From NCBI RefSeq assembly GCF_036634195.1, contig NZ_JAZIFY010000001.1, positions 4,102,501-4,166,500 of the forward strand: DNA of 64,000 nucleotides, given 5' to 3'. The number at the start of each line of letters is the position of its first letter. The first letter of the stretch is position 1. Below the pieces are notes generated by a model. The model ran no database searches, was not told where the DNA came from, and saw only the letters and a program-made list of their open reading frames with translations. This stretch comes from Streptomyces sp. P9-A4. GTDB lineage: Bacteria > Actinomycetota > Actinomycetes > Streptomycetales > Streptomycetaceae. Positions 3,035-63,479 of the stretch are shown here, one piece after another. The position numbers and the translations under genes were made by a program.

Positions 3035-3052
3035 ACATGAAGAAGAGTGCAC

Positions 3053-8854: not shown

Positions 8855-8914
8855 CCGGCGACAGCATCCGCGGCTGACATCAACAGATGAGGACGCGGGT
8901 GATTGAAGACGGGG

Positions 8915-8942: not shown

Positions 8943-8955
8943 GTGGAGGTGGATG

Positions 8956-9300
8956 CTATCCGAAGGCCGCCGCCGGAAGGCGGGGACCCTCGTCCTCTCC
9001 GTGAGCGGAGGGATCGGGCGTCGGCAAGCGGTGGCCGCGGCTCACTGCGACACGGAGTACGTCGTGCAACGCCCCCGCAAGGTCTGCCGCTAGGAGGCGG
9101 AGGTCGTCCGGTTCCGTCCGGGCGTCGGCGAGTACTGCTGCGGCGTGCTGCAGGAGTTCGGTGCAGGCGTCGAGTTGGGCGGCTTCGGTTCGGTCGGCCA
9201 GGCGGGATAGGGGGCCACCGTTTTCGTCGGTGCTCAGGAAGCAGGGCTTGCCGTCTGGGGTCGACCAGGGGAGGAGGCGGAGCTCGTTGTGGGACGTCAT
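8956..9300 (-). CDS. Small conserved protein following the second GntR gene
   Basis: A 114-residue, mostly helical protein with no recognised domain. Its N-terminus reads NELRLLPWSTPDGKPC. A helix-rich middle (LDACTELLQHAAAVLADART) is followed by a Pro-rich tail. Its ATG at 9300 overlaps the stop of the GntR gene in an ATGA arrangement, so it is translationally coupled to the regulator. Such short proteins are common next to GntR genes in Streptomyces mobile elements. It may modulate the regulator, which is inference. Confidence 0.6.
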   Translation of the reverse strand: MTSHNELRLLPWSTPDGKPCFLSTDENGGPLSRLADRTEAAQLDACTELLQHAAAVLADARTEPDDLRLLAADLAGALHDVLRVAVSRGHRLPTPDPSAHGEDEGPRLPAAAFG

Positions 9301-10025
9301 CCTTCCGGTCTCCTCTCTGTAGTTGTGTGGTCGGTGGTGAAGATGGCTTCGGCGCGGTCGCCGGGGAGGGCCAGGAGGGCCGCCTCGATGACGCGGCCTG
9401 TGATGTCCGTTGCCACGCGGGTAATTGCGAGAATCGCGAGGGTCGAGCTGATTCGGAGCGTCGCTGCTTCCGAAGCGGTCGGGAGGCGGACGTGGACGTT
9501 CTCCTCGACCTTGGCCAGTTGGGGGCGCGGCCCCCCTAGCAGGCTCGCCGTCTCCTGGGGCCAGGAAGGGGCGTCGGGTGCGGTGGCTGGCGCCAAGTCC
9601 CGGGGAACGTAGACGCGGGCCAGGCTGTGAGGCGACTTGCCGGCGTGGCTCACACAGAGGAACTCAGTCGCTGGGCTGCCAGACGTCACCCCCAGCAGGG
9701 CGGCCAGGTGGCCGCGGGCTCGGAGCTTCGTCGTGCGGATGCTGACGGGCAGAGGTGTCTGAGCCGGGGTGCGTCCACCGCCGACGTACGTGGTTCTACT
9801 CAGTGGCTGACGGGCGTAGTTGCTCTTGCCGTGGATCTTCTCCACGAGGCCTTCGGCCTGTAGCAGGGCGAGGGCGTTGCGGAGCGTCGGCGTGCTTACC
9901 TCGTAGTGGCAGGCGAGTTGGGCTTCCGAGGGGAGGCGTTCGCCGGGTTGGATGCGGCCGGCCGTGATCTGGGTGCGGAGGTCATCGGCGATGGCGTGTC
10001 GGCGAGAAGCCACGGTCCCGATCAC
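9297..10025 (-). CDS. GntR/UTRA transcriptional regulator
   Basis: About 242 residues. The winged-helix GntR domain is at the N-terminus (RRHAIADDLRTQITAGRI, PSEAQLACHYEVSTPTLRNA, EGLVEKIHGKSNY) and a UTRA-type effector domain follows (about 95-235, ending near TRVATDITGRVIE). The start is chosen at GTG 10025 because GGAG stands 5 nt upstream. TTG 10028 is too close to it. The gene overlaps the end of the preceding small gene by about 44 nt and is coupled by ATGA to the following one. It is the last-but-one gene of a minus-strand module whose first gene is at 11008. Confidence 0.8.
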   Translation of the reverse strand: MIGTVASRRHAIADDLRTQITAGRIQPGERLPSEAQLACHYEVSTPTLRNALALLQAEGLVEKIHGKSNYARQPLSRTTYVGGGRTPAQTPLPVSIRTTKLRARGHLAALLGVTSGSPATEFLCVSHAGKSPHSLARVYVPRDLAPATAPDAPSWPQETASLLGGPRPQLAKVEENVHVRLPTASEAATLRISSTLAILAITRVATDITGRVIEAALLALPGDRAEAIFTTDHTTTERRPEG

Positions 10026-10245
10026 CAACTCTCCGCATGCGTAGCGCGACGAGCCTGGTCCGGGTGTGCATGGTCAGCAGTTCGCCCGACTCGAAACGGA
10101 GCTGCTTCGCCCCGCCCCGGAGCTGGGAGAGGTCGATCACGCGATGCGGCAGGCCGCCGATCAGGATGACGTCGCCGATCTGGACGTTGGTCGAGGTGAT
10201 CTCGATGTTGGAAGTCACCGCGCTGCTGGGGGTGGTGATCCTCAT
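9982..10245 (-). CDS. Small hypothetical protein (beta-rich, 87 aa)
   Basis: It starts MRITTPSSAVTSNIEITSTN and contains DVILIGGLPHRVIDLSQLRG and RFESGELLTMHTRTRL, a short beta-rich layout reminiscent of small proteins found before GntR genes in actinomycete plasmids. The ATG at 10245 follows GGGGAAGG and overlaps the stop of the preceding gene (ATGA). Function unknown. It belongs to the chain of overlapping small genes 11008 to 8956. Confidence 0.6.
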   Translation of the reverse strand: MRITTPSSAVTSNIEITSTNVQIGDVILIGGLPHRVIDLSQLRGGAKQLRFESGELLTMHTRTRLVALRMRRVGDRDRGFSPTRHRR

Positions 10246-10445
10246 CGCGGTGCCTTCCCCGTCGGGGCCTTGTCGACCGACGGGTGGCAGGGGCAACTGC
10301 ATGCCTCGTAGACCACGGGCACGCCGACCGGGGCCGACGCGGGGGACGAGTGCGCGCACTCGTCGTGCGTGCCGATGCCGCACGCGCTCGATTGGTACGG
10401 GGCGGCGGCTGCGCGTGGCGCCCGGTGCTGCGGGTTAGGGCGCAT
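10242..10445 (-). CDS. Small Cys/His-rich hypothetical protein (67 aa)
   Basis: It starts MRPNPQHRAPRAAAAPYQSS and contains CGIGTHDECAH and EACSCPCHP, giving five cysteines and several histidines in a short span. This is consistent with a small zinc-binding fold, which is inference. The ATG at 10445 overlaps the stop of the preceding gene by one base (TGATG), and its own stop overlaps the next start (ATGA). Tight coupling on both sides supports real translation. Similar Cys/His-rich peptides occur in AICE cargo, but no function is known. Confidence 0.6.
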   Translation of the reverse strand: MRPNPQHRAPRAAAAPYQSSACGIGTHDECAHSSPASAPVGVPVVYEACSCPCHPSVDKAPTGKAPR

Positions 10446-10690
10446 CAGTGCGCCTCCGCGGCCATGCGCCACGTGGAAGCGGCCAGCGCCCGCCAGGACG
10501 CACGTTCCTCGGCGGTCAGTACATACGGCCGGACCAAAGCCGTCTCCTCGCCAGCGAGGACCCACTCGTGGACGCTTCGACCGCCAGGGGCGGGGGCCCG
10601 TCGCGCGAGCGTCCGGAGGTGGCAGGAGGCAGGCTTAGGGGCGTGACGCTCTCTGGTGCGCGTGATGGCGCGGCGGATACGGTTGAGCAC
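10445..10690 (-). CDS. Small basic hypothetical protein (81 aa)
   Basis: It starts MLNRIRRAITRTRERHAPKP, a strongly basic N-terminus, and ends in a Trp/Ala-rich helix (ASWRALAASTWRMAAEAH). No family is recognised beyond its habitual presence in Streptomyces element modules. It follows the 10703-11008 gene after 12 nt and overlaps the next gene by one base. The basic N-terminus could bind nucleic acid, which is inference. Confidence 0.6.
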   Translation of the reverse strand: MLNRIRRAITRTRERHAPKPASCHLRTLARRAPAPGGRSVHEWVLAGEETALVRPYVLTAEERASWRALAASTWRMAAEAH

Positions 10691-10702
10691 GCTGATCAGC
10701 TC

Positions 10703-11008
10703 CTATCGCTGATGGCCGGGTCCCCGGACATCGCCCGTCGCGGGGACCACCTTGCGTACGACGGCCCATAGGGTGCGGCCGCCGAGGCTGGTGGCGAGGA
10801 GCCCGAACCGGTCCGCCTGCGCCACCACTTCCAAGACCTCCCGCCATGTCCCGGCGGGGAGGGATGCTGGCACCTCCGCTTCGATCGACGTGTGTCGGGC
10901 GTGCTGCTCCACGCGTGCGGTGAGTCCGATGGCGGACAGCCGGGCGGCGATGGCTTCCGCGCGTACTTCTGGAGCAGGCACAGGGCAGCCTCCGTCACCG
11001 GCGATCAC
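10703..11008 (-). CDS. Small hypothetical protein, first gene of the second GntR module
   Basis: A 101-residue protein with an alternating beta/alpha pattern (AEAIAARLSAIGLTARVEQH, TWREVLEVVAQADRFGLL) and a conserved-looking GGRTLWAVVRK block, resembling short proteins common in actinomycete elements. The start is GTG 11008. A TAGCTT -10-like hexamer at 11022-11017 would begin the transcript within a couple of bases of the start codon, so the message may be leaderless. Twin operators 11020-11050 overlap that promoter. It heads the overlapping chain 11008 to 8956. Confidence 0.6.
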   Translation of the reverse strand: MIAGDGGCPVPAPEVRAEAIAARLSAIGLTARVEQHARHTSIEAEVPASLPAGTWREVLEVVAQADRFGLLATSLGGRTLWAVVRKVVPATGDVRGPGHQR

Positions 11009-11019
11009 TTTCAGTGAAG

Positions 11020-11050
11020 CTAGTTAACTAGATTAGAGCTAGTGGACTAG
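11020..11050. promoter_or_regulatory. Twin palindromic operators in a divergent leaderless promoter
   Basis: CTAGTTAACTAG (11020-11031, perfect) and CTAGTGGACTAG (11039-11050, two central mismatches) share the form CTAGTNNACTAG with centres 19 bp apart. TTAACT (11024-11029) and TAGATT (11048-11053), 18 nt apart, form a promoter that would start at the A of the GntR ATG (11060), so that message is leaderless. The operators cover its -35 and -10 and also the opposite promoter. This points to autoregulation by the adjacent GntR protein. Confidence 0.65.
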
Positions 11051-11059
11051 ATTTTCCAT

Positions 11060-11815
11060 ATGCCTGAGCAGCCGCCTTACTTGCGCATCGCCGACGAACT
11101 CCGCAGGCGGATCGCGGAGCGCGAGTGGACGCCCGGAGACCGGCTTCCTTCCCGCGCTCAGATCGGTCAGGAGTGCGGGGTCGGCGAGAACGTCGTCCGT
11201 CGCGCGCAGGAGCTTTTGATCTCCCAAGGTGTGCTGGAGGGGCGGGCCGGGTCGGGGACGTACGTGGCCGAGCCTCGGCAGCGGGTGCGGATGGTTCGGT
11301 CCGCAGCGCGCGAGCAGCCCGACGGGTCGCCGTTCCGGGCGGACATGAAGGCCCTCGGGAAGCGGAGCGGCTGGGAGAGTCGGACCGACGCCAAGGTGCC
11401 CGCGCCGGCGGAGATCGCTGCTCGGCTCGGGATCGCCGAGGGTGACCTGTGCGTCCGGACGGCCTACGAGTTCCTTGCCGACGGTCGGCCCGTGCAGCTC
11501 TCGACGAGCTGGGAGCCGTACGACCTGACAGCCGGCACCCTGATCGTGCTTCCCGAGGGTGGGCCGCACGCGGGCGCAGGGGTCGTGAATCGGATGGCTG
11601 CGATCGGTGTCACGATCAGCCATGCTGTTGAGCAGCCGGAGCCGCGGCAGGCGACTGGCGAGGAAGCGTCGCTGCTCGGGATTCAGAAGGCCGCTCTAGT
11701 TACGCACATCCGGCGGACCTACTACAGCGATCATGGTCGACCTGTGGAGACGGCGGACATCATCGTGCCCGCCGCCTTGTGCGAGATCGTCTACGAGGTT
11801 CCCATCAACCGTTGA
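11060..11815 (+). CDS. GntR/UTRA regulator, leaderless and autoregulated
   Basis: A 251-residue protein with a GntR winged helix (YLRIADELRRRIAEREW, SRAQIGQECGVGENVVRRA, QGVLEGRAGSGTYV) and a UTRA domain (about 95-245, with AYEFLADGRPVQLSTSWEP). ATG 11060 lacks a Shine-Dalgarno sequence but sits where the TAGATT promoter should initiate. It is transcribed away from the small-gene chain and shares its twin operators. The module resembles the copy or transfer control unit of a second element, suggesting the island is composite. Confidence 0.8.
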   Translation: MPEQPPYLRIADELRRRIAEREWTPGDRLPSRAQIGQECGVGENVVRRAQELLISQGVLEGRAGSGTYVAEPRQRVRMVRSAAREQPDGSPFRADMKALGKRSGWESRTDAKVPAPAEIAARLGIAEGDLCVRTAYEFLADGRPVQLSTSWEPYDLTAGTLIVLPEGGPHAGAGVVNRMAAIGVTISHAVEQPEPRQATGEEASLLGIQKAALVTHIRRTYYSDHGRPVETADIIVPAALCEIVYEVPINR

Positions 11816-11979
11816 TAGCAGAGGATCGATAACCGTTTGGCGACGCATCGCGGACGGTACGTAGTTTCCGGCAACTATGTTGGCGGATCATGCTGCTAGG
11901 CCAATGAACGATCCCGGTCGTGCCAGGCCTCGGCCTTTTGTGACCAACCGTCCAAACTTGGCTCGCCGGTTTCCCCGCT

Positions 11980-12300
11980 CTAGCGCGTCTCGCTGCTTTC
12001 CAAGATCCTAATCGCCCCCTCCTTTGAAACGAAACTCAAGGACTCCTCCTCCTCCTCGTTCAGGAGGGTGACATCAAGCTGTAGCTTGAGGACATTCCAA
12101 GCCTCGCGACAGGCGTCCGCGCGAAACTTTCGAGCCATCTCCTCGTTGCCTGGCTTGTAGACGAGGATTAGATCAATATCGGAGCCGGTTCGAGGGCCGC
12201 TACGTGAGGATCCGAAGAGGGATAGGCTCCAAGGGATCCCTAGGTGATCATTTTTCGCGATCTGACGGAGCAATGTAATCAAGGAATTCATCTCCGTCAT
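11980..12300 (-). CDS. Minimal nucleotidyltransferase (MNT/pol-beta fold)
   Basis: A 106-residue protein of the minimal nucleotidyltransferase type. GSSRSG at about 30-35 is followed by the metal-binding pair in GSDIDLILV (Asp41, Asp43). It contains little more than the catalytic core. It is the last gene of a three-gene minus-strand operon and overlaps the preceding gene by 53 nt, a sign of co-evolved coupling. ATG 12291 is an alternative start. The genes are visibly more A/T-rich than the host. Such minimal NTases act in HEPN/MNT toxin-antitoxin pairs or in defence operons. No HEPN partner is recognised here, so the role is open. Confidence 0.75.
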   Translation of the reverse strand: MTEMNSLITLLRQIAKNDHLGIPWSLSLFGSSRSGPRTGSDIDLILVYKPGNEEMARKFRADACREAWNVLKLQLDVTLLNEEEEESLSFVSKEGAIRILESSETR

Positions 12301-12640
12301 AATTCAACGCCCCCATCCACTCGTGGAACCTGAAAAGCCCAATGCCGACTGACTTTGCATACTCCTTGGCTTGCTTCGTGTAGCTGTTCCATGAGCTCAC
12401 GGTCAGGATGCATGTAATCGAAGGGTTTTCGTCGGCAATTTCTTGAACGTCTGCCAAGCCGACCGTGTACACGTTGGTAACGTGTAGCGTCACCGTTGAC
12501 TTACCAGTGCGGGAGATCTCGTAGACCTGCGGAGTTACTTCCCTGTATTCATGGACAGCGCTGTGTCGGTGCAGGGCCTTCCTGACGGCCTCGATAGACT
12601 CGGGGCGGGGGGTTTTCGCGTAGTAGCCGCCTTCCGGCAT
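12248..12640 (-). CDS. Small unknown protein of the HNH/NTase cassette (nuclease-like fold?)
   Basis: A 130-residue protein that I cannot assign. It has a beta-alpha layout (STVTLHVTNVYTVGLADVQE, ITCILTVSSWNSYTKQAKEY, then VGIGLFRFHEWMGALN) resembling the core of restriction-endonuclease-like or Rossmann-like small domains. A PD-(D/E)XK motif is not clear. The ATG at 12640 follows GAAGGAG 6 nt upstream, located right after the HNH gene stop. It sits between an HNH nuclease and an NTase, probably as the middle component of one complex, which is inference from gene order. Confidence 0.65.
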   Translation of the reverse strand: MPEGGYYAKTPRPESIEAVRKALHRHSAVHEYREVTPQVYEISRTGKSTVTLHVTNVYTVGLADVQEIADENPSITCILTVSSWNSYTKQAKEYAKSVGIGLFRFHEWMGALNYDGDEFLDYIAPSDREK

Positions 12641-12653
12641 GGCGAGCTCCTTC

Positions 12654-13364
12654 TTAGTTGAGAATCCTGTTTATTTCATCCGGGAAGCGGGGCACCGAGG
12701 ACGAAGTGGCCCCAAATACATGTTTCCTCTCAAACTCGTCAACGTGAATTCGGAGCATCTCCAATGTGGTCAACTCGGTCGAATGTAGGAGATGCGTGTT
12801 GGAGTCTAGAATCCTTAGGATCATTCGATTGTTTGGGATGATCACGTCGTGCACTCGTGCCCACCAAATTTCAACAGCGTCCGAAAAAGGGTCCCATGAA
12901 GATTCTGACTGAGGGCCGAATGCGTTGAACGTGGCCCGATTTGAGCGAAGAAGTGGCTCAAGTGCGGACCGCGCTTCCGCGCGATCCCTGAATGAGTGCG
13001 CTCCGAACGCGCTAGAGATGCGGGCTTCGTGTGAACTTTTCCAGCTTTGGAGCAATTCTACGGGGTACGTCGATTCCTGCGAGTCGATGGTCTTGTGGCA
13101 GATCAAGCAGAGTAGTATCAAATTCTTTTCGAGCGCTAGCGTGCTAGGCTCAATGTCGGGATTGGCCCGAGGGCCTTTGGGGGATGCTGCAATTATGTGA
13201 GCCAACTCGCCAACGTTAACGCGGGCGCCGTTCGCGGCCCTGACGAGGACTGGATTCAAGCAGTCCGGATTTTGGCAACGTCCCGCCGAATCTGCGTATA
13301 GATTGCGTATTTCATTGGCCCCAATTGCCCTTGCTGCGTTCTTGCATCGCCTCATTTGGTCCAC
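12654..13364 (-). CDS. HNH endonuclease with helical C-terminal domain
   Basis: 236 residues. The N-terminal half is an HNH nuclease: Cys30/Cys35 (CQNPDC), the catalytic region ELAHIIAASPKGPRANP (His56), Asn81 in EKNLILLCLICHKTID, and Cys86/Cys89/His90. The C-terminal half (about 130-236) is an all-helical domain (EIWWARVHDVIIPNNRMILR, LRIHVDEFERKH) of a kind I associate with defence effectors but cannot name. It is the first gene of the cassette. GTG 13364 or, in ATGA overlap with an upstream frame, ATG 13355 is the start. The A/T-rich composition suggests recent transfer. Confidence 0.8.
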   Translation of the reverse strand: MDQMRRCKNAARAIGANEIRNLYADSAGRCQNPDCLNPVLVRAANGARVNVGELAHIIAASPKGPRANPDIEPSTLALEKNLILLCLICHKTIDSQESTYPVELLQSWKSSHEARISSAFGAHSFRDRAEARSALEPLLRSNRATFNAFGPQSESSWDPFSDAVEIWWARVHDVIIPNNRMILRILDSNTHLLHSTELTTLEMLRIHVDEFERKHVFGATSSSVPRFPDEINRILN

Positions 13365-13852
13365 TCGATTTTTGTTGTCTGGTTGATGGTTTTTAGGGGC
13401 CTTGGGCGTGCTGAATATTCTTCTTGCATTCTCAGGACCTCGGCCCCGGATAGCTTAGCTCTCTCGTTCCGGCTGGCTGCGAGAACGTGGAAACTCAAGT
13501 TTCGGCGAGCATGAACATCTGGCACGTCTACGTCGCAGCTGTGCGCGACTGCCGCTGTCAGGGTCCTTTCGGCCGTGGGGGAGCCTGGCCGTCGGTTGGG
13601 ACCGAGCTTGTACCTGGCCCCCTGGGCAGAAGCAGGGATACAGCCGCAGTCAAGAGCTGCTGGACCGTCCGGAAGTCGACCGCGCGCAGTCGGACTTGGT
13701 TCGGGGGCAGAGGCGCGAGGGTGGGGGATCCGGGTCCGTGCCACATCCGTGCCAGATCGGGTGGGGACTCTCGGGGAACGAGGGGCGTTGGCGGGGTCCT
13801 TGCCCGCGAGTGGCGCCGTAAGCTGGTGCGCAGGTTGGCCCCGTCGTAGGCC
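13365..13852. other. Gap before the attachment site
   Basis: No secure gene. A minus-strand frame ending at 13352 overlaps the alternative HNH start in an ATGA arrangement and has a plausible charged tail (ARPRPLKTINQTTKIEWTK). Upstream of about 13500 its composition looks non-coding. Base composition changes from A/T-rich to G+C-rich near 13560, which may be the old edge of the cassette. Confidence 0.4.
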
Positions 13853-13901
13853 TCCCGCTCTTGTAAAGCGGGGGTCGTCGGTTCGAACCCGACAGGGGGC
13901 T
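13853..13901 (+). other. Attachment site: 3' fragment of tRNA-Thr(UGU)
   Basis: The fragment contains a full anticodon arm (CCGCT/AGCGG stem at 13855-13859 and 13867-13871, loop CTTGTAA, anticodon TGT at 13862-13864). A full T arm follows (GTCGG, TTCGAAC, CCGAC at 13877-13893), then the acceptor 3' strand AGGGGGC with discriminator T. The expected 5' acceptor strand GCCCCCT and a D arm are absent upstream. It is therefore the duplicated 3' end left by site-specific integration, not a working tRNA. Confidence 0.8.
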
Positions 13902-13910
13902 CAACGCAAA

Positions 13911-13950
13911 GGGCCGGCGCAGGGGCATGATTCCCCGGCGCCGGCCCTTT
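13911..13950 (+). terminator. Terminator of the original tRNA-Thr gene
   Basis: GGGCCGGCGC (13911-13920) pairs with GCGCCGGCCC (13938-13947) and is followed by TTT. It stands 10 nt after the tRNA fragment, as expected for the host tRNA terminator. This identifies the right side as chromosome. Confidence 0.7.
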
Positions 13951-14169
13951 CGCATGATCACGGCCGTGCCGCCTACGTGCCAGATGGCCCTGGTACACGT
14001 CATCGTCGGAGTCCGTCTTCGTGTCGAAGGTGATGCGCACTTCGAAATCCTGTGGGAGGGCTCGTGCAACCTTTTGCGGCGTCACGGGGTCGAACGGGTG
14101 CATGGGAAGCGGGTCGGTGCTTCCGTCAGCACCAAGTGCCTCCGCATCCGGGGGGCCGAGGAGGATTTC

Positions 14170-50225: not shown

Positions 50226-50732
50226 ATGCGTGCAGGCCGGAAGGTGACCCGGATCGAGACCGTGAATCGGTCGACGGGCGAGGTGAACGACCTCACCGTC
50301 CATTCGTCCGTCTCGGTCGCAGCCGGTCTCTGGTTCAGAGGAGGAGGTTTCACCACGATGGGATACGCGGCACACCTGGCACTCGCCGATGCCGACCTCA
50401 GCGCGGCGTCCTTCAGGCTGTTCCACAAGATGTGCGCCATCCAGAACCGCAAGGACCACGGCCTGGTCATCGTCGAGAGCCAGACCAAGTTCGCCGAGCT
50501 GGTCGGAATGTCCCAGTCCTCGGTGTCTCGCGCTCTCCGGCAGCTCGCCGACCACGGATTCATCTACGCCGACGGCCGGAACTGGCGTCTGCGTGCCGAC
50601 TTCGTGTTCAACGGCAACGGCGCCGCCCAGGGGCAGGCCATCCAGAACATCCCCGCCGGCGCCCCTGACCCGTACACCGGGAAGGGCGCCGAGCTGACCG
50701 TCATCGACGGCGGCAACGACAGCGACGCGTGA
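50226..50732 (+). CDS. RepL-like winged-helix protein (plasmid-type)
   Basis: 168 residues. The C-terminal two thirds fold as a winged helix: SAASFRLFHKMCAIQN, TKFAELVGMSQSSVSRALRQ (recognition helix), LADHGFIYADGRNWRLRADF, then VFNGNGAAQ in the place of the RepL-type YxxNP end. RepL-like proteins serve plasmid replication or its control. ATG 50226 follows GGGGG. A second in-frame ATG at 50358 with GAGGAGG before it would give a shorter form lacking the first 44 residues. Its palindromes and position suggest a mobile-DNA origin for this block. Confidence 0.7.
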   Translation: MRAGRKVTRIETVNRSTGEVNDLTVHSSVSVAAGLWFRGGGFTTMGYAAHLALADADLSAASFRLFHKMCAIQNRKDHGLVIVESQTKFAELVGMSQSSVSRALRQLADHGFIYADGRNWRLRADFVFNGNGAAQGQAIQNIPAGAPDPYTGKGAELTVIDGGNDSDA

Positions 50733-50808: not shown

Positions 50809-51987
50809 TCAGGAGCGCACGAGAGCCCTTCGCAGCGCTTCGGTCAGTGCAGCCGCACGTACATCGTCGGCCCCGCTCATGATGTTGTTCATCGCGTACC
50901 CGAAGGCGACGCCGTGCCGCGGGTCGGCGAAGGAGAGTGAGCCGCCGCGGCCGGTGTGACCGAAGGCGTTCGGGCCGGTCATCAAGTTGCCTTCGGCGGG
51001 GAGCATGTAGCCGCTGCTGAATCGGCTTGGGAACACCAGCACCTGGTCCTTGCCACTGGCCTGCTCTTCGGTCGCTGAAGCCAGGGTCTCCGGGGCGAGC
51101 AGGCGCACGCCGTCGACCTCGCCGATCAGCGCGGCGTACATCCGGGCCAAGGCCCGTGCGGTGCCGATGCCGTTGGAGGACGGGAGTTCTGCGGCCTGCA
51201 CCTCGGGGGAGTCGAAGTCGATCGCGGCCGGGTCGGTGACAGCAAACGCCCGGTTGCTGAAGGAATTCGGGTCGCGCCAGGCGGCGACCTGTTCGCGAAG
51301 TTCCTCGGGAACCAATTCGGCGGCCACGGTGGTGAGGTCGACGGCCGGGCGCTGGTACGCCATGCGGCTGACTCGGTTGCGTTCGCCTGCCGGCAGGCCG
51401 ATGAAGAAGTCCAGCCCGAGCGGGCCCGCGATCTCGTCGGCGAAGAAGCGGCCCGGCGAGCGGCCGGAGACTCGGCGGATCACCTCGCCGACCAGCCAGC
51501 CCCAGGTCCGTCCGTGGTACCCGTGTGCGGTGCCTGGAGTCCACAGGGGGCGCTGGGCCGCCAACGCTGCGGCCATGGGATCCCAGGCCAGCGCCTCGGC
51601 CAGCGGCAGCGGTTCGTCCAGGGCGACGAGACCGGCCTGGTGGGACAGCAACCAGCGCACGGGGATGTCCGCCTTGCCGTTCGCCGCGAACTCCGGCCAG
51701 TACTTCGCCACCGGAGCGTCGAGGTCCAACATGCCGCGCTCGGCCAGCATGTGCGCCGCGGTCGCGGTGGCTCCTTTGGTCGCTGAGTACACCAGTTGCA
51801 GGGTGTCCCGCGTCCAAGGACGGCCGGTGTCAACGTCGGCGACGCCACCCCACAGATCCACCACCGGCCGGCCGTGCCAGTAGACGCACACGGCCGCGCC
51901 GATGTCCCCGTGCTGGGTGAAGTTCGCAACGAACGCCTCGCGGACCGGTTCGAACCCGGGCGCCACCTCACCGTTGATCGTCGTCAT
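50809..51987 (-). CDS. Serine hydrolase of the beta-lactamase/EstB family
   Basis: A 392-residue class C beta-lactamase-like protein with SxxK motif SATK (YSATKGATATAAH), a Tyr motif GYHGRTWGWLVGEV, and the family end FGHTGRGGSLSFADPRHGVA (HTG box). No signal peptide is seen, so it is cytoplasmic and more likely an esterase or acyl/peptide hydrolase than a periplasmic resistance enzyme. ATG 51987 is preferred (AGGA 8 nt upstream) over ATG 51996. It is the last gene of the minus-strand cluster starting at 56571 and could trim or activate the product. Confidence 0.85.
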   Translation of the reverse strand: MTTINGEVAPGFEPVREAFVANFTQHGDIGAAVCVYWHGRPVVDLWGGVADVDTGRPWTRDTLQLVYSATKGATATAAHMLAERGMLDLDAPVAKYWPEFAANGKADIPVRWLLSHQAGLVALDEPLPLAEALAWDPMAAALAAQRPLWTPGTAHGYHGRTWGWLVGEVIRRVSGRSPGRFFADEIAGPLGLDFFIGLPAGERNRVSRMAYQRPAVDLTTVAAELVPEELREQVAAWRDPNSFSNRAFAVTDPAAIDFDSPEVQAAELPSSNGIGTARALARMYAALIGEVDGVRLLAPETLASATEEQASGKDQVLVFPSRFSSGYMLPAEGNLMTGPNAFGHTGRGGSLSFADPRHGVAFGYAMNNIMSGADDVRAAALTEALRRALVRS

Positions 51988-52041
51988 ACCGTTCATCCTG
52001 GCAGCCGCGCTGCCGCAGCTGACAGGAGAAGTGGCCTCTGC

Positions 52042-52611
52042 TCAGAGGCAGTCGGCAGAGACGCGTACGACGAGGGTGACGCGTTCGCCCCTCGTGATCG
52101 GCCGTACGCCGTGGATGTGGTCGCGGGTGGCCGGGAAGGCGACCAGGGTGCCACAGGGCGGCTTGATCTCCTGGGCGGGGTTCTCGAAGAACAGCTTGCC
52201 GCCGCCGTAGGAGTCAGGGGTGTTGAGCGAGACCACGAGGGTGAGGTCGCCGCCGACGACGGGCTGTCCGTTGGTCCGGGCCCGCTCGCGCTCGATGTCG
52301 GTGACCTCGTCGTGGTGGGCGACGAAGCCAACGCCGGGGCCGTAGCGGTAGACGACCGCCGGCTGGGTGGGTATCCGTTGCGGGGCGATCTCGAAGTGGC
52401 CACGCAAGTGGGCGGCGCAGTGCGAGATGACCGCCTCCTCCAGGTGCGTCGGGACCTCGACGTACTCGCTCTTGCGCAGCGATTCGTCGATGACGCCCTG
52501 GTAGGTACGCGGGCGGGCGGTCTGGTTCTTCACGTGGTCCATCAGCGCTCCGCAGAGGCTGAGGGGGATGGCGCTCTCTACGACGAGCGGTAAGCGGCTC
52601 TTCCAGGTCAT
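52042..52611 (-). CDS. 2-oxoglutarate/Fe(II)-dependent oxygenase
   Basis: A 189-residue prolyl-4-hydroxylase-type oxygenase. Fe ligands are H99-x-D101 (GFVAHHDEVTD) and H167 (DHIHGVRP), with Arg177 (RGERVTLVV) for 2-oxoglutarate. It would hydroxylate a peptide, an amino acid or another small substrate. ATG 52611 overlaps the stop of the CysRS-like gene (ATGA), so the two are translated together. This is strong evidence that it tailors the product of that pathway. Confidence 0.88.
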   Translation of the reverse strand: MTWKSRLPLVVESAIPLSLCGALMDHVKNQTARPRTYQGVIDESLRKSEYVEVPTHLEEAVISHCAAHLRGHFEIAPQRIPTQPAVVYRYGPGVGFVAHHDEVTDIERERARTNGQPVVGGDLTLVVSLNTPDSYGGGKLFFENPAQEIKPPCGTLVAFPATRDHIHGVRPITRGERVTLVVRVSADCL

Positions 52612-53984
52612 GAAGTGGTCTCCTTCCACCAACGGGTGCCTTCGGGCGAGTCCTCAAGGACGACGCCCTGCTGGGTGAGCTGGTCGCGGATCGCGTCGGC
52701 CTCGGCGAACTTCTTCGCCGCGCGGAGCCGGTCGCGTTCCTTCACGAGTTCGTCGACGGCGGCGTCGCTTTGGGCGGCGCCGGGGATGTCGAAGGTTCCG
52801 AAGAGGTTGTTCACGTCCTCGATCAGCCGCAGGGCGGCCGGCCCGGCCGGTTCCTCCATGCGGTTCTGCTCGCGGATGTACTGGAACAGGACGGCGAGGG
52901 CACCTGGGGTGTCGAAGTCGTCGTCCAGGCGCTCGCGCATCTCCTTCCAGGCGTCCGTCGCGCGTGCGGCGTTCGCCGGGCTGTCTGCGTGCGCGGGGTC
53001 GATGGTCCGGGCGAAGTTCTCGATCCGGCGGCGTGCCCCTCGGGCCTGCTCCAGCGTGGAGTCGCTCAGCTCCATGGAGGAGCGGTAGTGCTGGGAGAGG
53101 AAGGCGTGCCGCAGGGTCCGGAAGTCCGTCCGGGTGAGGGCGTCGCGGATGGTGAGGAAGTTGCCGGTGCTCTTCGACATCTTCTCGCCGTCGACCCGCA
53201 GGAGACCGGTGTGCATCCAGTAGCGGGCCAGAGGCTCGATGCCGGAGGCGGCTTCCATCTGGGCGACCTCGGCCTCGTGGTGCGGGAAAATGAGGTCGAC
53301 GGCGCCGCCGTGCAGGTCGTAGGAGGGCCCGAAGAAGGTCTCCGTGATCGCGGTGTCCTCGATGTGCCAGCCCGGACGGCCCGGTCCCAGGTCGGTCTCC
53401 CAGAACGGCTCGCCGTCCTTGCGGCCCTTCCACAGCGCGAAGTCGCCCGGGTTGTGCTTCTTCGAGTTGTCGTCGATCCGCGACACCGAGTCCTCGGGGC
53501 GCAGGTCGGTGCGACCGGAGAGCTTGCCGTACGCGGGGAACGAGGCCAGGTCGAAGTACCAGCCGTCGTCGAGCTGGTAGGCGTGGCCCCGCTCGATGAG
53601 TCGCTTGATCTGGTCCACGATCGCGTCGATGTGGTCGTGGGCCCGCGCGTGGACGTCGACGCGGGTGTTCCCCAGTGCGGCCATGTCCTCCAGGTACTGC
53701 TTCTCGAAGAGCGCCGCGATCTCCTCCGGCGGGACGCCCTCCTCCGCTGACCGCCGGATGATCTTGTCATCGACGTCGGTGATGTTCTGGAGGTACGTGA
53801 CCCTGTACCCGCTCACTTCCAGGTACCGGGCGATGAAGTCGAACTGCGTGTACGTCTTCGCGTGCCCGACGTGGCTGGGGCCGTACACGGTGGGTCCGCA
53901 CACGAACATCCGCACCTCGGCCTCCCGCTCGGGGCGGAACTCCTCGGTCTGGCTGGTCAGCGTGTTGTGGACCTTGATCGACAT
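52608..53984 (-). CDS. Cysteinyl-tRNA synthetase paralogue with altered zinc ligand
   Basis: 458 residues, full CysRS architecture. Cys29 (FVCGPTVYG), HIGH box HVGH (38-41) and KMSKS (268-272), with a C-terminal helical anticodon-binding region including DDDFDTPGAL. In the zinc site His235/236 and Glu239 are kept, but the position of E. coli Cys209 is Asp210 (WHIEDTA where WHIECSA is usual). ATG 53984 follows AGGAGG; ATG 53987 is too close. Being in a biosynthetic-looking operon, it is either an amino-acid ligase (as MshC is for mycothiol), a tRNA-charging enzyme for the pathway, or a resistant copy of the housekeeping enzyme. Confidence 0.85.
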   Translation of the reverse strand: MSIKVHNTLTSQTEEFRPEREAEVRMFVCGPTVYGPSHVGHAKTYTQFDFIARYLEVSGYRVTYLQNITDVDDKIIRRSAEEGVPPEEIAALFEKQYLEDMAALGNTRVDVHARAHDHIDAIVDQIKRLIERGHAYQLDDGWYFDLASFPAYGKLSGRTDLRPEDSVSRIDDNSKKHNPGDFALWKGRKDGEPFWETDLGPGRPGWHIEDTAITETFFGPSYDLHGGAVDLIFPHHEAEVAQMEAASGIEPLARYWMHTGLLRVDGEKMSKSTGNFLTIRDALTRTDFRTLRHAFLSQHYRSSMELSDSTLEQARGARRRIENFARTIDPAHADSPANAARATDAWKEMRERLDDDFDTPGALAVLFQYIREQNRMEEPAGPAALRLIEDVNNLFGTFDIPGAAQSDAAVDELVKERDRLRAAKKFAEADAIRDQLTQQGVVLEDSPEGTRWWKETTS

Positions 53985-54038
53985 CATGCCTCCTGTGTAA
54001 GCGGATCACGCAGCGTACTGACGCCCGGACATAAGCGT

Positions 54039-54968
54039 CTAACTGGAACCGCCGCGCTCGCCGAAGGGAACGAATCGCGCCGCCGGCTGATCGGCGAAGA
54101 CCGACGCCTCTCCTCCGAGGAGGTGGTGGTTGGCCCGCTGGTACGCCTTCCGCACGGCCTCGATCGCCCCGGGGCTGAGGTCCATCCCGACCGCGCGGCA
54201 GAACTCGCTCAGGGCCTCGCACCGCCGCTCAAGGTCAACCATCGACAGCGGGTCGCACTGCTGGGCCTCGATCAGCAGGTTCTCCTGCTCACCGCTGATC
54301 AGGCCGAGTGCACTGAGGGAGTACAGCTTCCACTTCATGTTCGGCAGCAGCTGGCCCGAGCGGGCGTACATCCAGTCCACGACCTCGTCCAGCGCCCCGG
54401 AGAGGACGAAGTGGCCCGTGGGCACTCCGACCCGCCGTGCCATCCGCAGCGGGATCTCGCGCACGTCCCAGGTGAGCCGGTTGTGCAGCCGGTAGGTCTC
54501 GCCCTCCAGCAGCTGAAGCTGCTCCCGCGACTTGTGAGAGATCAGGGCCCCGAAGACTTCCTCGCGGTCGAACAGCGGCTCGCCCTTGTTCCCGTAGGCG
54601 TCGCACTTGTCGCTGTTCCACGCCGTGCGCGGGTCGGCCTCGTACTGGAAGAGGAGCTGGTGGACGTTGACCTCCATGCGCCCCCAGGAGACCGGCAGGT
54701 GGAAGCTGAACTCCGGGATCCAGGCGGGGAGACGGTCGCGGACCAGGGCGTACGTGTCCGCCGGCCGCGACCTCCACTCGTCCTCCGTGATCGGGACGTC
54801 GAGGACGACGGCCAGGTCGAAGTCGGAGTCGGTGCTGAACCGCGTGACGTTGCGGGGCGCGACCGCCGAGGAGGACAGGACGTAGAGCGCCTGGACCTCG
54901 GGCATCGTCTTGAGCGTGTCGAGCAGACCTCCGGCAGCGGCGCGGGCCTGCATTCTCAGGTTTTCCAC
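54039..54968 (-). CDS. Nucleotidyltransferase-fold protein (309 aa)
   Basis: The N-terminal nucleotidyltransferase fold has SSSAVAPRN in place of the canonical GSxxxG, then SDFDLAVVLD with the metal-binding Asp pair (Asp49, Asp51) and a later acidic strand (MEVNVHQLLFQYE). A helical C-terminal domain of about 150 residues follows. It should adenylylate or otherwise nucleotidylate a small molecule or protein. GTG 54968 follows AAGGAG. It lies 13 nt downstream of the ATP-grasp gene within the operon. Confidence 0.78.
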   Translation of the reverse strand: MENLRMQARAAAGGLLDTLKTMPEVQALYVLSSSAVAPRNVTRFSTDSDFDLAVVLDVPITEDEWRSRPADTYALVRDRLPAWIPEFSFHLPVSWGRMEVNVHQLLFQYEADPRTAWNSDKCDAYGNKGEPLFDREEVFGALISHKSREQLQLLEGETYRLHNRLTWDVREIPLRMARRVGVPTGHFVLSGALDEVVDWMYARSGQLLPNMKWKLYSLSALGLISGEQENLLIEAQQCDPLSMVDLERRCEALSEFCRAVGMDLSPGAIEAVRKAYQRANHHLLGGEASVFADQPAARFVPFGERGGSS

Positions 54969-54981
54969 GGGAACTCCTTGG

Positions 54982-56103
54982 TCAGATGATCGGGCGATCC
55001 ATCACGGAGCGGAGCGCGGGAACGAGCTCCAGCGCGACGCCGCCGTGGGTGCGCTGGATATGTGCGAGGGAGGGGCTGCTGTTGCCCTCGATGACCGCAG
55101 GTCCGCCGGGTGTCAGTGCGATGTCCCAGCCGATGAAGGGCACCTGCGGGAACAGGCGCGCACAGCGCTCGGCCAGCTCTCGGACCTCCGTCATGCGGGA
55201 GATACGGTGGTCGGCGAACGGAACCGAACTGACCCCGTGGCGGGTGTGGGCGTTCAGGTATCGGTCGTAGCCGTGGCGGTCGAGTCGCCCGTCGGGGTGG
55301 ACTCGGATCTGCATGCCGCCGGCGGCCGAGTTGTCCGTGGTGCTCTCGGTGCCGCCGAGTTTCAGCATCACGTAAAGGACTTCGGCGGCGCCTTCACGCA
55401 GCAGGGTGATCACGCGGAACGTGTTGAGGGCGTATGGGTTCAGCACGTCCAAGTCGGGATGCTGCGGCACGTGCTGCTCCACCAGCCACGTGCCCCACCG
55501 CTGCGCGTAGGCCGGCAGGTCGAAGGCGTCCTCACCGGGCCGCACGATCACGACGCCGGACCCACCACTGGAGTAGCGGGAGGGCTTGACCACCACGCGG
55601 CCGAGTCCGGACGCGTGGTCGAGGACATCCGCCAGCGGCACCACATCACCAGCGGACGTCGCACCCGTGCGGCGGTCACCGCTCGCGATGAGCGCGGGCT
55701 GCGGGATGTCGGCGGACGCGAGGATCCTCTTGCAGGACGTCTTGTCGTCCAGGTCGATCGCGTCCCGGTTCACGCGGGGAAGGAGCCGGTGGAACAGGGC
55801 GCTCTCCGGCAGGTACGAGCAGGCCCGCTCGGACGACACCTCGCGCCGGTATCCGCCGTAGCGGAAGTAGTGGAACGGCAGGCAGCGCCACCGCGTGGTG
55901 ACCTTCACCAAGTCCCCGGCGATGCGGGCCAGGCTCTTCCTGTCCTTGTCGCGCAGCATCGCCGGCAGGTGCTCGCTCCGCAGTTGCCGCACCTGGTAGG
56001 GGAGAAACCGCGCGCCGGACACGCGGGGAAGGACCTGGGTGCGGAACCACTCCTCGGTCACGGCCTGGCGGTGGTTGAAGCCGCGGTTCGCGGTACGTCT
56101 CAT
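54982..56103 (-). CDS. ATP-grasp ligase (sugar-transfer-associated type)
   Basis: A 373-residue ATP-grasp protein. A family-specific N-terminus (YQVRQLRSEHLPAMLRDKDR) precedes the ATP-grasp core with VVVKPSRYSSGGSGVVIVRP (nucleotide-binding lysine and glycine loop), WLVEQHVPQHP, and the metal-binding end FIGWDIALTPGGPAVIEGNS. It would activate a carboxylate as acyl-phosphate and join it to an amine or other nucleophile. It is the first enzyme gene of the cluster, 17 nt after a 29-residue membrane peptide gene. Confidence 0.88.
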   Translation of the reverse strand: MRRTANRGFNHRQAVTEEWFRTQVLPRVSGARFLPYQVRQLRSEHLPAMLRDKDRKSLARIAGDLVKVTTRWRCLPFHYFRYGGYRREVSSERACSYLPESALFHRLLPRVNRDAIDLDDKTSCKRILASADIPQPALIASGDRRTGATSAGDVVPLADVLDHASGLGRVVVKPSRYSSGGSGVVIVRPGEDAFDLPAYAQRWGTWLVEQHVPQHPDLDVLNPYALNTFRVITLLREGAAEVLYVMLKLGGTESTTDNSAAGGMQIRVHPDGRLDRHGYDRYLNAHTRHGVSSVPFADHRISRMTEVRELAERCARLFPQVPFIGWDIALTPGGPAVIEGNSSPSLAHIQRTHGGVALELVPALRSVMDRPII

Positions 56104-56120
56104 GGTGCTCCTCCCGTTTC

Positions 56121-56210
56121 TCAGTGGTCCGGGGTTCCGGCGAAGGCCAACGTGACGACGAGCGCACTCACGACGATCACGTAGGCCACGACAGCGAGGC
56201 GCTGCCTCAT
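56121..56210 (-). CDS. 29-residue single-helix membrane peptide
   Basis: MRQRLAVVAYVIVVSALVVT followed by LAFAGTPDH: a basic start, one hydrophobic helix, and a short polar tail. Its ATG at 56210 overlaps the stop of the upstream small gene (ATGA) and its stop is 17 nt before the ATP-grasp gene, so translation is very plausible despite its size. It could be a membrane anchor, a small regulatory peptide or a translational coupler. It has no match I can name. Confidence 0.6.
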   Translation of the reverse strand: MRQRLAVVAYVIVVSALVVTLAFAGTPDH

Positions 56211-56410
56211 CGGGCGGGCCCGATGTTGTCGGCGGCGGTGGACCAGGCGATGCCGTTCGCGGGCTGGATGTAGGCGATGCGGATGAGCCGGCCGCCGTGC
56301 CTCTCGTGGACGACTTCGGTCAGCTCACCTTCACCGCGGCTCGCGATGTCGCGGACCAGGCGGTGAAGGAGGGGGTGGTCCTCCCGGCCTTCGGCGTCGA
56401 CCGGATTCAC
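56207..56410 (-). CDS. Small conserved protein of the cluster leader (67 aa)
   Basis: It starts at GTG 56410 with GAGGAG 8 nt upstream: VNPVDAEGREDHPLLHRLVR, then GELTEVVHERHGGRLIRIAY and IQPANGIAWSTAADN. Its start overlaps the stop of the previous small gene and its stop overlaps the next start. Short proteins of this style frequently sit opposite XRE-TPR regulators in Streptomyces. They may be partners of that regulator, which is inference. Confidence 0.65.
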   Translation of the reverse strand: MNPVDAEGREDHPLLHRLVRDIASRGEGELTEVVHERHGGRLIRIAYIQPANGIAWSTAADNIGPAR

Positions 56411-56571
56411 CGCTCGGACTCCTCGCGATCGCTCGCTCCGCGCCGGAGGAATCTCTCCCACCCGGCTCCGGCGCGGGCTCGGAGGGCCGGACTCGGACCG
56501 GTCGGCGGCTCGGGAACCGTGTGCTGTCGTCCGCTGTCGCCGGGCGTACGGACGGGCAGAGGCTGGCTCAT
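56407..56571 (-). CDS. Small Pro/Arg-rich protein, first gene of the cluster (54 aa)
   Basis: ATG 56571 follows GAGGAG 6-7 nt upstream and opens MSQPLPVRTPGDSGRQHTVP, followed by a basic tail (FLRRGASDREESER). The stop overlaps the GTG of the next gene (GTGA). It is the promoter-proximal gene of the operon 56571-50809. Composition is disordered. No family is recognised. Confidence 0.5.
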   Translation of the reverse strand: MSQPLPVRTPGDSGRQHTVPEPPTGPSPALRARAGAGWERFLRRGASDREESER

Positions 56572-56744
56572 CACGATCTCCTCGGGGGTGGTGCAGCCCG
56601 TCACCCGCGTGTGGGACGTCGATGACGGGCTGCTGTCCTGGGAGCCGTCCGGAGCGGGGCGGGGGAGCCGGATACCCGGGTGCTCAGCTCCGAACGGCGT
56701 GAGGCCCAGTGAACGGCCGTGGGCCACGGGCTCGGAACGTTTCC

Positions 56745-56773
56745 AGGCGGTTCCTCCAGCGAGAGAAACCGCC
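56745..56773. promoter_or_regulatory. Inverted repeat between the cluster operon and its regulator
   Basis: AGGCGGTT (56745-56752) faces AACCGCC (56767-56773), flanked by two GTTTCC copies (56739-56744 and 56774-56779). It lies 57 nt upstream of the divergent regulator start and is a candidate site for that regulator. Nothing else is seen in this 258-nt gap apart from a TAGCCT -10-like hexamer near 56797. Confidence 0.4.
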
Positions 56774-56829
56774 GTTTCCCGCACGCATGGGGAGTAGCCT
56801 CCCGACTACCGACCTGAGGGGAGGGTGGG

Positions 56830-58167
56830 ATGTCTGACCTGATGGCGCTGCACCCGCTGACCTACGTGCGAGAAGGCAAGGGCTGGGGCAAGGCGGAGTT
56901 AGCCCGGCGCATGCGTGAACGCGGGGCCGAGCTGGGCGTACCGCTGGCCACCAACCGGACGACGGTCTGGAAGTGGGAGCAGGAGCAGGCGCCTGACGCG
57001 GACGCGCAACGGGTGCTCGCCGACCTGCTGGGAGTCCCCGAGGACCACATGCGCTCGGTGCCCTGGCCCCGATGGTTGCCGGCGTGGGAGTCGACGGCCC
57101 TGGCGGCCCCGTGGACTCCGGCCGGCACCGTGAAGGTATTCGCTGATCTGGTCAGGAGTGGCCACATGGATCGTCGGGGATTCCTGTCCATCACCGGCGT
57201 CGCGCTGACGGGAGTCGCCGCCAACTGGGCAGCCGCACCAGAGGCGTTCGCCTCGGCAATCGACGGCGACCGCGTCACTGACGCGATGGTGACCACCATC
57301 GAAGCGCGCGTGGAGACCCTCCGCACGCTCGACGACCAGATGGGCGGCGCGCGCCTCCTGGACCAGGCCACCAGCGACCTCGCACTGATCACCAGCCTCC
57401 TCGACCACGGGCGCTACTCCGACGCCGTCGAACACCGCCTGTACGCCACGGCCGCCCGCGTGTCCTACCTCGCCGGCTGGATGGCCTACGACAAGGGCCT
57501 CCGCTCCCTCGGCCAGCGCTACTACGTCGGCGCCCTCCGCAGCGCCCACAGCGCGAAGGACGACGGCTTCGGCGCCTTCATCCTGGCCGAGATGGGCGTC
57601 CACATCTCCGATTCCGGTGACACGGCCGCACGCGTGAAGTTGATCGACACCGCCATCGGCAACGCCCCGTCGGCCCTCCCGCCTGCGGCGACCTCGTATC
57701 TCTTCCTCCACCAGGCCGAAGCCCTCTCCCGAGACACCCAGCACGAGGCGGCCGGCAAGTCCCTCGACCGGGCCTACGACCTGTGGGGCACGCACGGTGA
57801 AGGCGACCGTCCCGACTGGCTCGGCTGGTACGGCGAGGCCCAGCTCAAGTCCACAGAGGGCAAGATCATGCTGCGCTCTGGCTTCCCCGAGCGAGCAACC
57901 AGGGCCCTCGCGGTAGCCGTCGAGCAGGCGGTCCCCCGGGACCGAGCTGTACGCTCCGGCCGCCTCGCCACGGCACGGCTGGCCGCTCGGGACCTTGATG
58001 GCGCTTTGGACGCCGCCAACGCCGGTCTGGAGCTATTGGAGAACCGTGTGCAGTCCGACCGGGCACACGTTCGTCTGGCCAAGTTCAACCGCTGCCTTGA
58101 ACCGCATGCCGCAGTGTCGGCCGTGCGGAATTTTCGCGAACGGCTCAGGGCTCTCCCCGCTGGCTGA
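56830..58167 (+). CDS. XRE-type regulator with TPR-like helical repeats
   Basis: 445 residues. An N-terminal HTH (YVREGKGWGKAELARRMRER, TNRTTVWKWEQEQAPDADAQ) is followed by a linker containing MDRRGFLSITGVALTGVAAN, a Tat-like hydrophobic patch often seen in these regulators. A long TPR-like helical region follows (about 150-430: YLAGWMAYDKGLRSLGQRYY, YLFLHQAEALSRDTQHEAAG). Such proteins sense peptides or partners through the TPR part. It is divergent from the biosynthetic operon and is its most likely regulator. ATG 56830 follows GGGGAGGGTGGG. Confidence 0.8.
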   Translation: MSDLMALHPLTYVREGKGWGKAELARRMRERGAELGVPLATNRTTVWKWEQEQAPDADAQRVLADLLGVPEDHMRSVPWPRWLPAWESTALAAPWTPAGTVKVFADLVRSGHMDRRGFLSITGVALTGVAANWAAAPEAFASAIDGDRVTDAMVTTIEARVETLRTLDDQMGGARLLDQATSDLALITSLLDHGRYSDAVEHRLYATAARVSYLAGWMAYDKGLRSLGQRYYVGALRSAHSAKDDGFGAFILAEMGVHISDSGDTAARVKLIDTAIGNAPSALPPAATSYLFLHQAEALSRDTQHEAAGKSLDRAYDLWGTHGEGDRPDWLGWYGEAQLKSTEGKIMLRSGFPERATRALAVAVEQAVPRDRAVRSGRLATARLAARDLDGALDAANAGLELLENRVQSDRAHVRLAKFNRCLEPHAAVSAVRNFRERLRALPAG

Positions 58168-58256: not shown

Positions 58257-58838
58257 GTGACCACTGACCCCATTCTGTGGATCAAGGACGACACCTGCGG
58301 CCTCGGCCCCTTCCGGCCCGACCTCGTCGAGACCTATTGGCGGTGGGAACAGGATCCGGCCCTCCTCGTGGGTTACGGACGCCAGAGCCCCGAGTCCCTG
58401 GAGGCTCGTACCGAGGGCATGGCCCACCAACTCCGTGGCGAGAAAATCCGCTTCACCGTCTACGACGTCAGCGGCGCCGAGCCCGTCCCCGTCGGGGTCG
58501 CGACGCTCCTGCCGGACCATCAGGTGCGGACCGCCGAGTACGTCGTGATGCTCGCCCCGGAGGCTCGTGGGCGTGGTCTCGGGAGCGCGGCCACCCGTCT
58601 CGTCCTCGACTACGCGTTCCACGTCGTCAACGTGCGCATGGTCTGGCTGAAGGTGCTTGCGCCCAACGTGGGTGGCGTCAAGGCGTACGAGAAAGCCGGG
58701 TTCCGAAAGGCCGGATCGGTGCGTGAAGCGGGTTACTGGCTCGGCGAGGTGTGCGACGAGCTGATCATGGACAGCCTCGCCCGCGACTTCGGCGGTCCGT
58801 CCGCCGTGCGTGCCCTGGTCGCCCCGGAACGGGAGTAG
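58257..58838 (+). CDS. GNAT-family N-acetyltransferase
   Basis: A 193-residue RimJ/RimL-like GNAT. The acetyl-CoA loop is LAPEARGRGLGSAATRLVLD and the C-terminal part is LKVLAPNVGGVKAYEKAGFR. The N-terminus includes YWRWEQDPALLVGYGRQSPE, typical of the subgroup acting on aminoacyl or antibiotic amines. It closes the inserted block between the regulator and otsA. It may modify the cluster product or give self-resistance, which is inference. The start is GTG 58257. Confidence 0.82.
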   Translation: MTTDPILWIKDDTCGLGPFRPDLVETYWRWEQDPALLVGYGRQSPESLEARTEGMAHQLRGEKIRFTVYDVSGAEPVPVGVATLLPDHQVRTAEYVVMLAPEARGRGLGSAATRLVLDYAFHVVNVRMVWLKVLAPNVGGVKAYEKAGFRKAGSVREAGYWLGEVCDELIMDSLARDFGGPSAVRALVAPERE

Positions 58839-63311: not shown

Positions 63312-63460
63312 ATACCGCTCATCCAGAGGGGCAGAGGGAAACGGCCCGTTGAAGCCCCGGCAACCCTCCAGTCGGTTCGTCTCGTCCTCCAGCGAGGTCC
63401 CCGGCTAGGGAAGGTGCCAAATCCGTCTCATGGCGAAAAATTCGTCATGGGAAAGATGAG
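63312..63460 (+). ncRNA. SAM-I (S-box) riboswitch upstream of thrC
   Basis: The conserved S-box core is present in order: TCATCCAGAGGGGCAGAGGG (63319-63338), ACGGCCC, TTGAAGCCCCGGCAACC (63349-63365), and GGTGCCAAATCC (63413-63424) after a variable P4-type hairpin. CTCATC at 63319-63324 can pair with GATGAG at 63455-63460, just before the thrC ribosome-binding region, which suggests control of translation initiation. S-adenosylmethionine is the expected ligand. Confidence 0.85.
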
Positions 63461-63479
63461 GAGAAAGGGCCTCGCCTCC

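Follow-up and report, generated by a model that had tools for sequence, protein, structure and literature searches.

What might be made by a compact operon that sets a paralogue of cysteinyl-tRNA synthetase (CysRS) among an ATP-grasp ligase, a nucleotidyltransferase-fold protein (NTase) and a 2-oxoglutarate (2OG)/Fe(II) oxygenase? The question is raised by a 64,000-nucleotide stretch of the 7.5 Mb genome of Streptomyces sp. P9-A4 (contig NZ_JAZIFY010000001.1, positions 4,102,501 to 4,166,500; hereafter the window). An earlier note on this DNA had described a biosynthetic cluster of eight close-packed genes on one strand, with a divergent XRE-TPR regulator, which could assemble a compound derived from an amino acid or an aminoacyl-tRNA. 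Core synteny, conserved residues, purifying selection, an adjoining regulator and accessory swaps together support a ligase-built biosynthetic cassette, and the balance of probability favours a horizontally moving gene set for a small amino-acid-derived compound. What the note had not seen is the loss of a zinc ligand in the CysRS paralogue, here called CysRS-D, which argues against cysteine.

CysRS selects cysteine without editing: a zinc ion holds the thiol of the substrate, and the four zinc ligands (Cys28, Cys209, His234 and Glu238 in the Escherichia coli enzyme) read that thiol. Aligned with E. coli CysRS (1li5), CysRS-D keeps Cys28, His234 and Glu238, but Asp211 replaces Cys209. The same aspartate is found in all 17 cassette copies of a 49-sequence set and in an eighteenth copy from locus L075 (18/18), whereas cysteine occupies the position in 30/30 other CysRSs and in both MshC-type proteins. 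The 30 comparison sequences are the 29 best phylum matches to CysRS-D, rather than random picks, together with the organism's own housekeeping CysRS (L012); the two MshC-type rows are its own MshC (L013, 628 bits against the MshC cut-off of 485) and a protein from locus L033. The other three ligands are kept in the 17 aligned cassette rows, apart from Cys28 in L019, which lies outside the open stretch of that copy. With the thiolate ligand lost at the Cys209 position, cysteine is an unlikely substrate, and CysRS-D, to judge from the alignment, probably activates something else.

In most other respects CysRS-D resembles a CysRS. It passes the family model (TIGR00435, cut-off 340) at 441.3 bits, as do the copies in L026 (439) and L031 (438), and it is like the E. 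coli enzyme in length. The HVGH (HIGH) and KMSKS motifs are present in every one of the 17 cassette rows, and so are the residues that we take, from structural work, to contact the anticodon (equivalents of R427, F/W432, D436 and D451), which were also identified by eye in L075; the anticodon domain itself is recognised in CysRS-D (CysS_C, 28.3 bits against a cut-off of 23). The aspartate does not stand alone, as further fixed changes lie close to the pocket: in twenty columns the cassette clade is uniform for a residue unlike that of at least 85% of the 30 CysRSs, and ten of these columns fall within residues 200–253, the stretch holding three of the four zinc-ligand positions. In a phylogenetic tree the cassette copies are monophyletic (100/100) on a long stem of 1.3 changes per site, with a sister group that is unsure because long branches meet. 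CysRS-D is extra to the housekeeping gene, which scores 461 bits and has the cysteine intact. MshC, also present in the genome, is a CysRS-derived ligase that forms an amide via an aminoacyl-adenylate, and so offers a model for a stand-alone ligase of the CysRS type. CysRS-D falls below the MshC model (TIGR03447; 282 bits against a cut-off of 485.1), and the comparison is one of opposites: the organism's own MshC and the L033 protein keep both cysteine ligands and lack the anticodon domain, whereas CysRS-D is the reverse.

The cassette is rare, and all loci found lie within the Streptomycetaceae. Searches with the NTase were positive in 8 of 295 genus genomes, and a search of genome contigs gave 7 loci, all in Streptomyces, two of them repeating genomes of the 295-genome search. 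An NTase profile search found 4 of 394 family genomes, the organism's own included, and 1 of 396 phylum genomes, which is its own; two other genera yielded 1/35 and 2/70. The CysRS paralogue, searched across the genus at E 1e-130, gave ten places in 9 of 392 genomes, every one a core locus, and added one new genome (G1033); at E 1e-100, 86 of 296 phylum genomes match, own included, with a best identity outside the own genome of 49%. Counting the window, the searches give 18 separate loci from 17 genomes. Genome G209 carries two copies: L019, of the window type, is decayed, and L024, of another type, is intact.

The earlier note had let its proposal depend on whether these genes keep company elsewhere, and they do: the order ATP-grasp, NTase, CysRS-like, 2OG oxygenase is collinear in 18/18 loci. 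In the five deepest members (L026, L031, L032, L033 and L075), identity to the window is 42–54% for the ATP-grasp protein, 48–58% for the NTase, 64–69% for the CysRS-like protein and 52–60% for the 2OG oxygenase. All six large genes tested are under purifying selection, with ratios of nonsynonymous to synonymous substitution (dN/dS) of 0.10–0.59 for the four core genes (window against L018, L021 and L026) and 0.11–0.18 for the serine hydrolase and the regulator (window against L014 and L018). The collinearity and the selection set this grouping of genes apart from a chance one.

The families that had been assigned to the ATP-grasp, CysRS, 2OG and serine hydrolase proteins are borne out by Pfam and NCBIfam scores (Table 1). 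The ATP-grasp protein has invariant residues that are likely to be the catalytic ATP/Mg ligands; no significant sequence relative was found among solved structures (best E 0.12), and the fold, shared with RimK, ArgX, LysX and Ddl, is nearest to amino-acid C–N ligases; the family is ATPgrasp_ST. The 2OG oxygenase has H106, D108, H174 and R184, the HxD...H triad and the 2OG-binding arginine, invariant in 8 rows. Its nearest solved structure is the PKHD-type hydroxylase PiuC (E 2.7e-6), with HxD...H...R aligned in a short match of 89 residues; four PRK05467-type NCBIfam models score 28–43 bits, below their cut-offs of 143–399. The NTase assignment stands in part: no Pfam or NCBIfam family was found at E 0.1, and the fold is indicated by its motif and a modest structural match. 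S33/S34, D49, D51 and E99 are invariant in 11 rows, and a low-confidence model resembles LinB and ANT-type enzymes in the N-terminal NTase fold and the helical C-terminal part. Selenocysteine, suggested by a TGA flagged in five relatives (L021–L025), was rejected for this protein: the NTases of these loci read 301 residues with the same last four and no stop, so that the TGA is an ordinary stop just beyond the reading frame.

How the cassette reached its present position is indicated by its edges. When 47–63 kb of the window was compared with the six closest loci (L014–L018 and L020; blastn, E 1e-10), matches start at 50,822–50,837 and stop at 58,158–58,162 in 6/6, and this part of the window has no other match to them outside the cassette. 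The sharp ends of homology and the unlike flanks in the six relatives mark the cassette as a transferred unit, and on these alignments it is horizontally transferred. A winged-helix gene (50226–50732) and a GNAT gene (58257–58838), considered as further parts, were rejected as lying outside the homology boundaries. L015 has an insertion before the hydrolase gene; in L017 the same place has a small insertion, and sequence upstream of the ATP-grasp gene is deleted. G+C content is 68.9% in the cassette against 73.5% at 15–50 kb of the window, but is only 71.0% just downstream, so that composition alone is a weak sign of transfer. The insertion site lies between otsB and otsA. These genes are ∼470 bp apart in relative G006, with the gap nearly empty (L087, 12967–13438), and in relative G004 the gap is filled by ∼3.2 kb of other open reading frames (ORFs; L086, 8989–12214); from these differing contents, it is possible that the otsB–otsA site is a hot spot for insertion. 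Close behind the cassette, L014 (14529–14601), L016 (14585–14660) and L025 (12571–12644) each have a tRNA-Arg (CCT) gene, and in L075 this place is taken by tRNA-Ser and tRNA-Arg (ACG) genes; such tRNA genes are a possible integration site. Spread on plasmids or phages was considered and rejected: the NTase has no match at E 1e-5 among 72,556 plasmid records, and the 20 phage records that match the CysRS paralogue are all below 60% identity.

All eight genes of the earlier description are present, running on the minus strand from 56571 down to 50809 as five large and three small ORFs. Successive genes, read downstream, are separated by −4, −4, 17, 13, 51, −25 and 45 nt, and thus by no more than 51 nt. 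The divergent XRE-TPR regulator belongs to the NsdA family, and to include it the cluster has to be extended to about 58,162. As had been claimed, no non-ribosomal peptide synthetase (NRPS), polyketide synthase (PKS) or maturase domain for ribosomally synthesised and post-translationally modified peptides (RiPPs) scores above cut-off among the region's ten proteins in Pfam and NCBIfam, the best 25 of 42 NCBIfam matches being considered for the serine hydrolase.

Table 1. Genes of the cassette and limits of the transferred segment, in window coordinates.
Feature	Position	Strand	Remarks
Small ORF 1	56407..56571	-	54 codons; overlaps small ORF 2 by 4 nt; not strictly conserved
Small ORF 2	56207..56410	-	67 codons; not strictly conserved
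Small ORF 3	56121..56210	-	29-residue predicted membrane peptide
ATP-grasp C–N ligase (core)	54982..56103	-	PF14397, 124 bits
Nucleotidyltransferase-fold protein, NTase (core)	54039..54968	-	Motif and modest fold match
CysRS paralogue, CysRS-D (core)	52608..53987	-	TIGR00435, 441 bits
2OG/Fe(II) oxygenase, PKHD-like (core)	52042..52632	-	PF13640, 43 bits
Serine hydrolase, beta-lactamase/esterase fold (accessory)	50809..51996	-	PF00144, 242 bits
NsdA-family TPR-like regulator	56830..58167	+	NF053720, 337 bits against a cut-off of 75
Transferred cassette	50822..58162		Limits of blastn homology, 6/6 close relatives

Around the core, the contents of the cassette vary. Genes in the relatives were called by a home-made scan of G+C by codon position, which missed at least two (a TauD-type oxygenase in L026 and a second ATP-grasp in L033), and accessory genes may be undercounted. 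The serine hydrolase, which had been counted as a cluster member, is in the operon, but it was detected only in the window and the six loci closest to it (L014–L018 and L020), with no tblastn match in the remaining 11; on this distribution it is accessory rather than core. A regulator gene, of helix-turn-helix or NsdA type, adjoins the core in 16 of the 18 loci. It is NsdA-type in eight (the window, L014–L018, L020 and L075, where it is divergent from the core and 62% identical) and another helix-turn-helix gene in L021–L025, L026, L031 and L032, the assignment for L022–L025 following from their resemblance to L021; an incomplete NsdA-like frame is present in L033 (55 bits, below cut-off), and no regulator was found beside the core in L019. 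A HAD hydrolase and an ORF of 189 residues are common to L021–L025, the ORF being split in two in L025, and the TauD-type protein of L026 matches PF02668 at 63 bits. In L033 the second ATP-grasp is placed between the ATP-grasp and NTase genes, and a CysRS-family protein nearest to MshC (1889–3067; 375 bits, below the cut-off of 485) stands alongside the Asp-type enzyme, with canonical zinc ligands and no anticodon domain. A search with this protein finds four CysRS-family places in its genome, including itself and the Asp-type copy, the other two being outside the cassette. The relatives with added ligases or an added oxygenase seem to be variations of one basic scheme.

The three small ORFs at the head of the operon are less constant. 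For small ORF 1, dN is below dS in 4 of 5 pairs and above it in one; for small ORF 2 it is below in the 4 pairs computed. The deletion in L017 fuses small ORF 1 to the end of ORF 2, which is absent as such, and neither was seen in the deeper relatives read through. Small ORF 3 has dN below dS, weakly, in all 6 pairs, and a scan of 13 loci found a similar membrane peptide, again 17 nt ahead of the ATP-grasp gene, in L014, L018 and L021–L024. The scan did not find it in L017, L025, L026, L032, L033 and L075; a separate comparison shows it to be present in L017, so that the scan can miss it. For L031 the scan gives a different hydrophobic ORF.

Elsewhere in the window, a SAM (S-adenosylmethionine) riboswitch lies at 63316–63462 on the plus strand (76 bits). 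Positions 4001–14000 have a lower G+C content (57.6–67.9% in 2-kb steps) and few strong genes by a simple scan, and on these grounds are possibly another island.

On the simplest view, the pathway would form two amide or ester bonds, carry out one oxidation and transfer one nucleotidyl group. CysRS-D would adenylate a small non-cysteine amino acid suited to a Cys/Asp/His/Glu site, for which serine, 2,3-diaminopropionate and similar units are candidates. The acceptor of the activated unit would be tRNA-Cys or, as with MshC, an amine. A second amide bond would be made by the ATP-grasp ligase via an acyl phosphate, and the 2OG oxygenase would hydroxylate or desaturate one of the units. The nucleotide added by the NTase could belong to the product or serve self-protection. 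The regulator would control the gene set, with the hydrolase and the small ORFs as accessories.

Several observations weigh against this scheme. The scores of 438–441 bits against 340, in three copies, are those of an ordinary CysRS as far as the family model can tell; aspartate can itself bind zinc, so that use of cysteine by CysRS-D is improbable rather than impossible. The anticodon domain is 48–50% identical to the window's in L026, L031, L033 and L075, compared with 71–74% for the catalytic part, which suggests that its constraint is modest, and the kept anticodon residues, as aligned, fit the charging of a tRNA as well as they fit a stand-alone ligase. The structure model of the NTase is weak (pLDDT 68.5), no product, transporter or resistance gene was identified, and L019, with a broken NTase and a 2OG match of 56 residues only, shows as the sole decayed locus among the 18 that the cassette can be lost.

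The anticodon domain also bears on the alternative that stands closest to the pathway. CysRS-D might charge tRNA-Cys with a non-cysteine residue for use in a tRNA-dependent step, the domain being kept for that purpose; its contact residues persist in 17/17 rows and in L075, and the two MshC-type rows lack the domain. Against this, no recognisable aminoacyl-tRNA-using transferase is present in the core, and the Pfam and NCBIfam scan of the region's proteins found no recognised tRNA-using enzyme near CysRS-D. No tRNA-Cys gene is present in the window or among the 7 tRNA genes of 17 related loci; a dedicated tRNA for CysRS-D was rejected, the window having no tRNA gene at all. Such charging is conceivable yet doubtful, and it is a sub-case of the preferred explanation, with which its odds overlap. 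The fuller proposal, in which a CysRS with the Cys-to-Asp exchange still reads tRNA-Cys and feeds a mischarged or activated unit to a mobile pathway, is likewise a tentative one that we hold to be possible rather than probable.

The remaining explanations are a good deal less probable. A thiol-cofactor pathway, in which the CysRS relative would act as the MshC equivalent in making a mycothiol-like compound, draws on the CysRS-derived origin of MshC and on the extra MshC-like protein with a canonical zinc site in L033. It is improbable for an enzyme that falls so far below the MshC cut-off, keeps its anticodon domain and lacks the second cysteine ligand, in an operon where no thiol-pathway partners were seen. 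Slightly less probable still is that CysRS-D serves for self-resistance, giving protection from an inhibitor of CysRS that the cassette itself makes: resistant second synthetase copies occur in antibiotic producers, but the substitution removes the ligand of the cysteine thiol, so that a poor CysRS is expected, and CysRS-D is deeply diverged and placed mid-operon between pathway genes. An anti-phage defence or toxin–antitoxin-like island, given the same low credence, would suit a sporadic, mobile cassette and an NTase fold that also resembles MNT antitoxins. The gene content is that of a ligase plus an oxygenase, however, with a regulator of NsdA type, and PADLOC, which covers known systems only, returned for 8 proteins two matches to generic 2OG models labelled CRISPR-associated, one of them strong (E 3.6e-13), and one borderline match for the regulator. 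The least probable of all is a RiPP-like cluster, with a small ORF encoding the peptide on which the 2OG oxygenase and the ATP-grasp ligase act. Three small ORFs do head the operon, and the 2OG oxygenase, the nearest approach to a RiPP maturase, faintly matches the NCBIfam model of the peptide oxygenase YhhC (13.5 bits against a cut-off of 150); but ORFs 1 and 2 are neither intact in L017 nor seen in those deeper relatives that were read, ORF 3 is a membrane peptide present in part of the loci, and it is hard to see a function for a CysRS relative in this scheme.

The recruitment of a class I synthetase relative to small-molecule biosynthesis has a precedent in the hydrazine synthetases, which carry a MetRS-like domain. 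There the synthetase is a different one, and the cassette lacks a cupin domain and has other partners. We know of no characterised cluster with the gene content described here. On the tentative proposal of a CysRS that still reads tRNA-Cys after the Cys-to-Asp exchange, it would be the founder of a class of natural products built by a synthetase plus an ATP-grasp ligase, outside the NRPS, PKS and RiPP routes. In a clade where one zinc ligand is fixed as aspartate, nature provides a test of how the specificity of a synthetase can shift, and the cassette would offer a handle for genome mining, as cluster finders keyed on NRPS, PKS and RiPP genes might miss such compounds.

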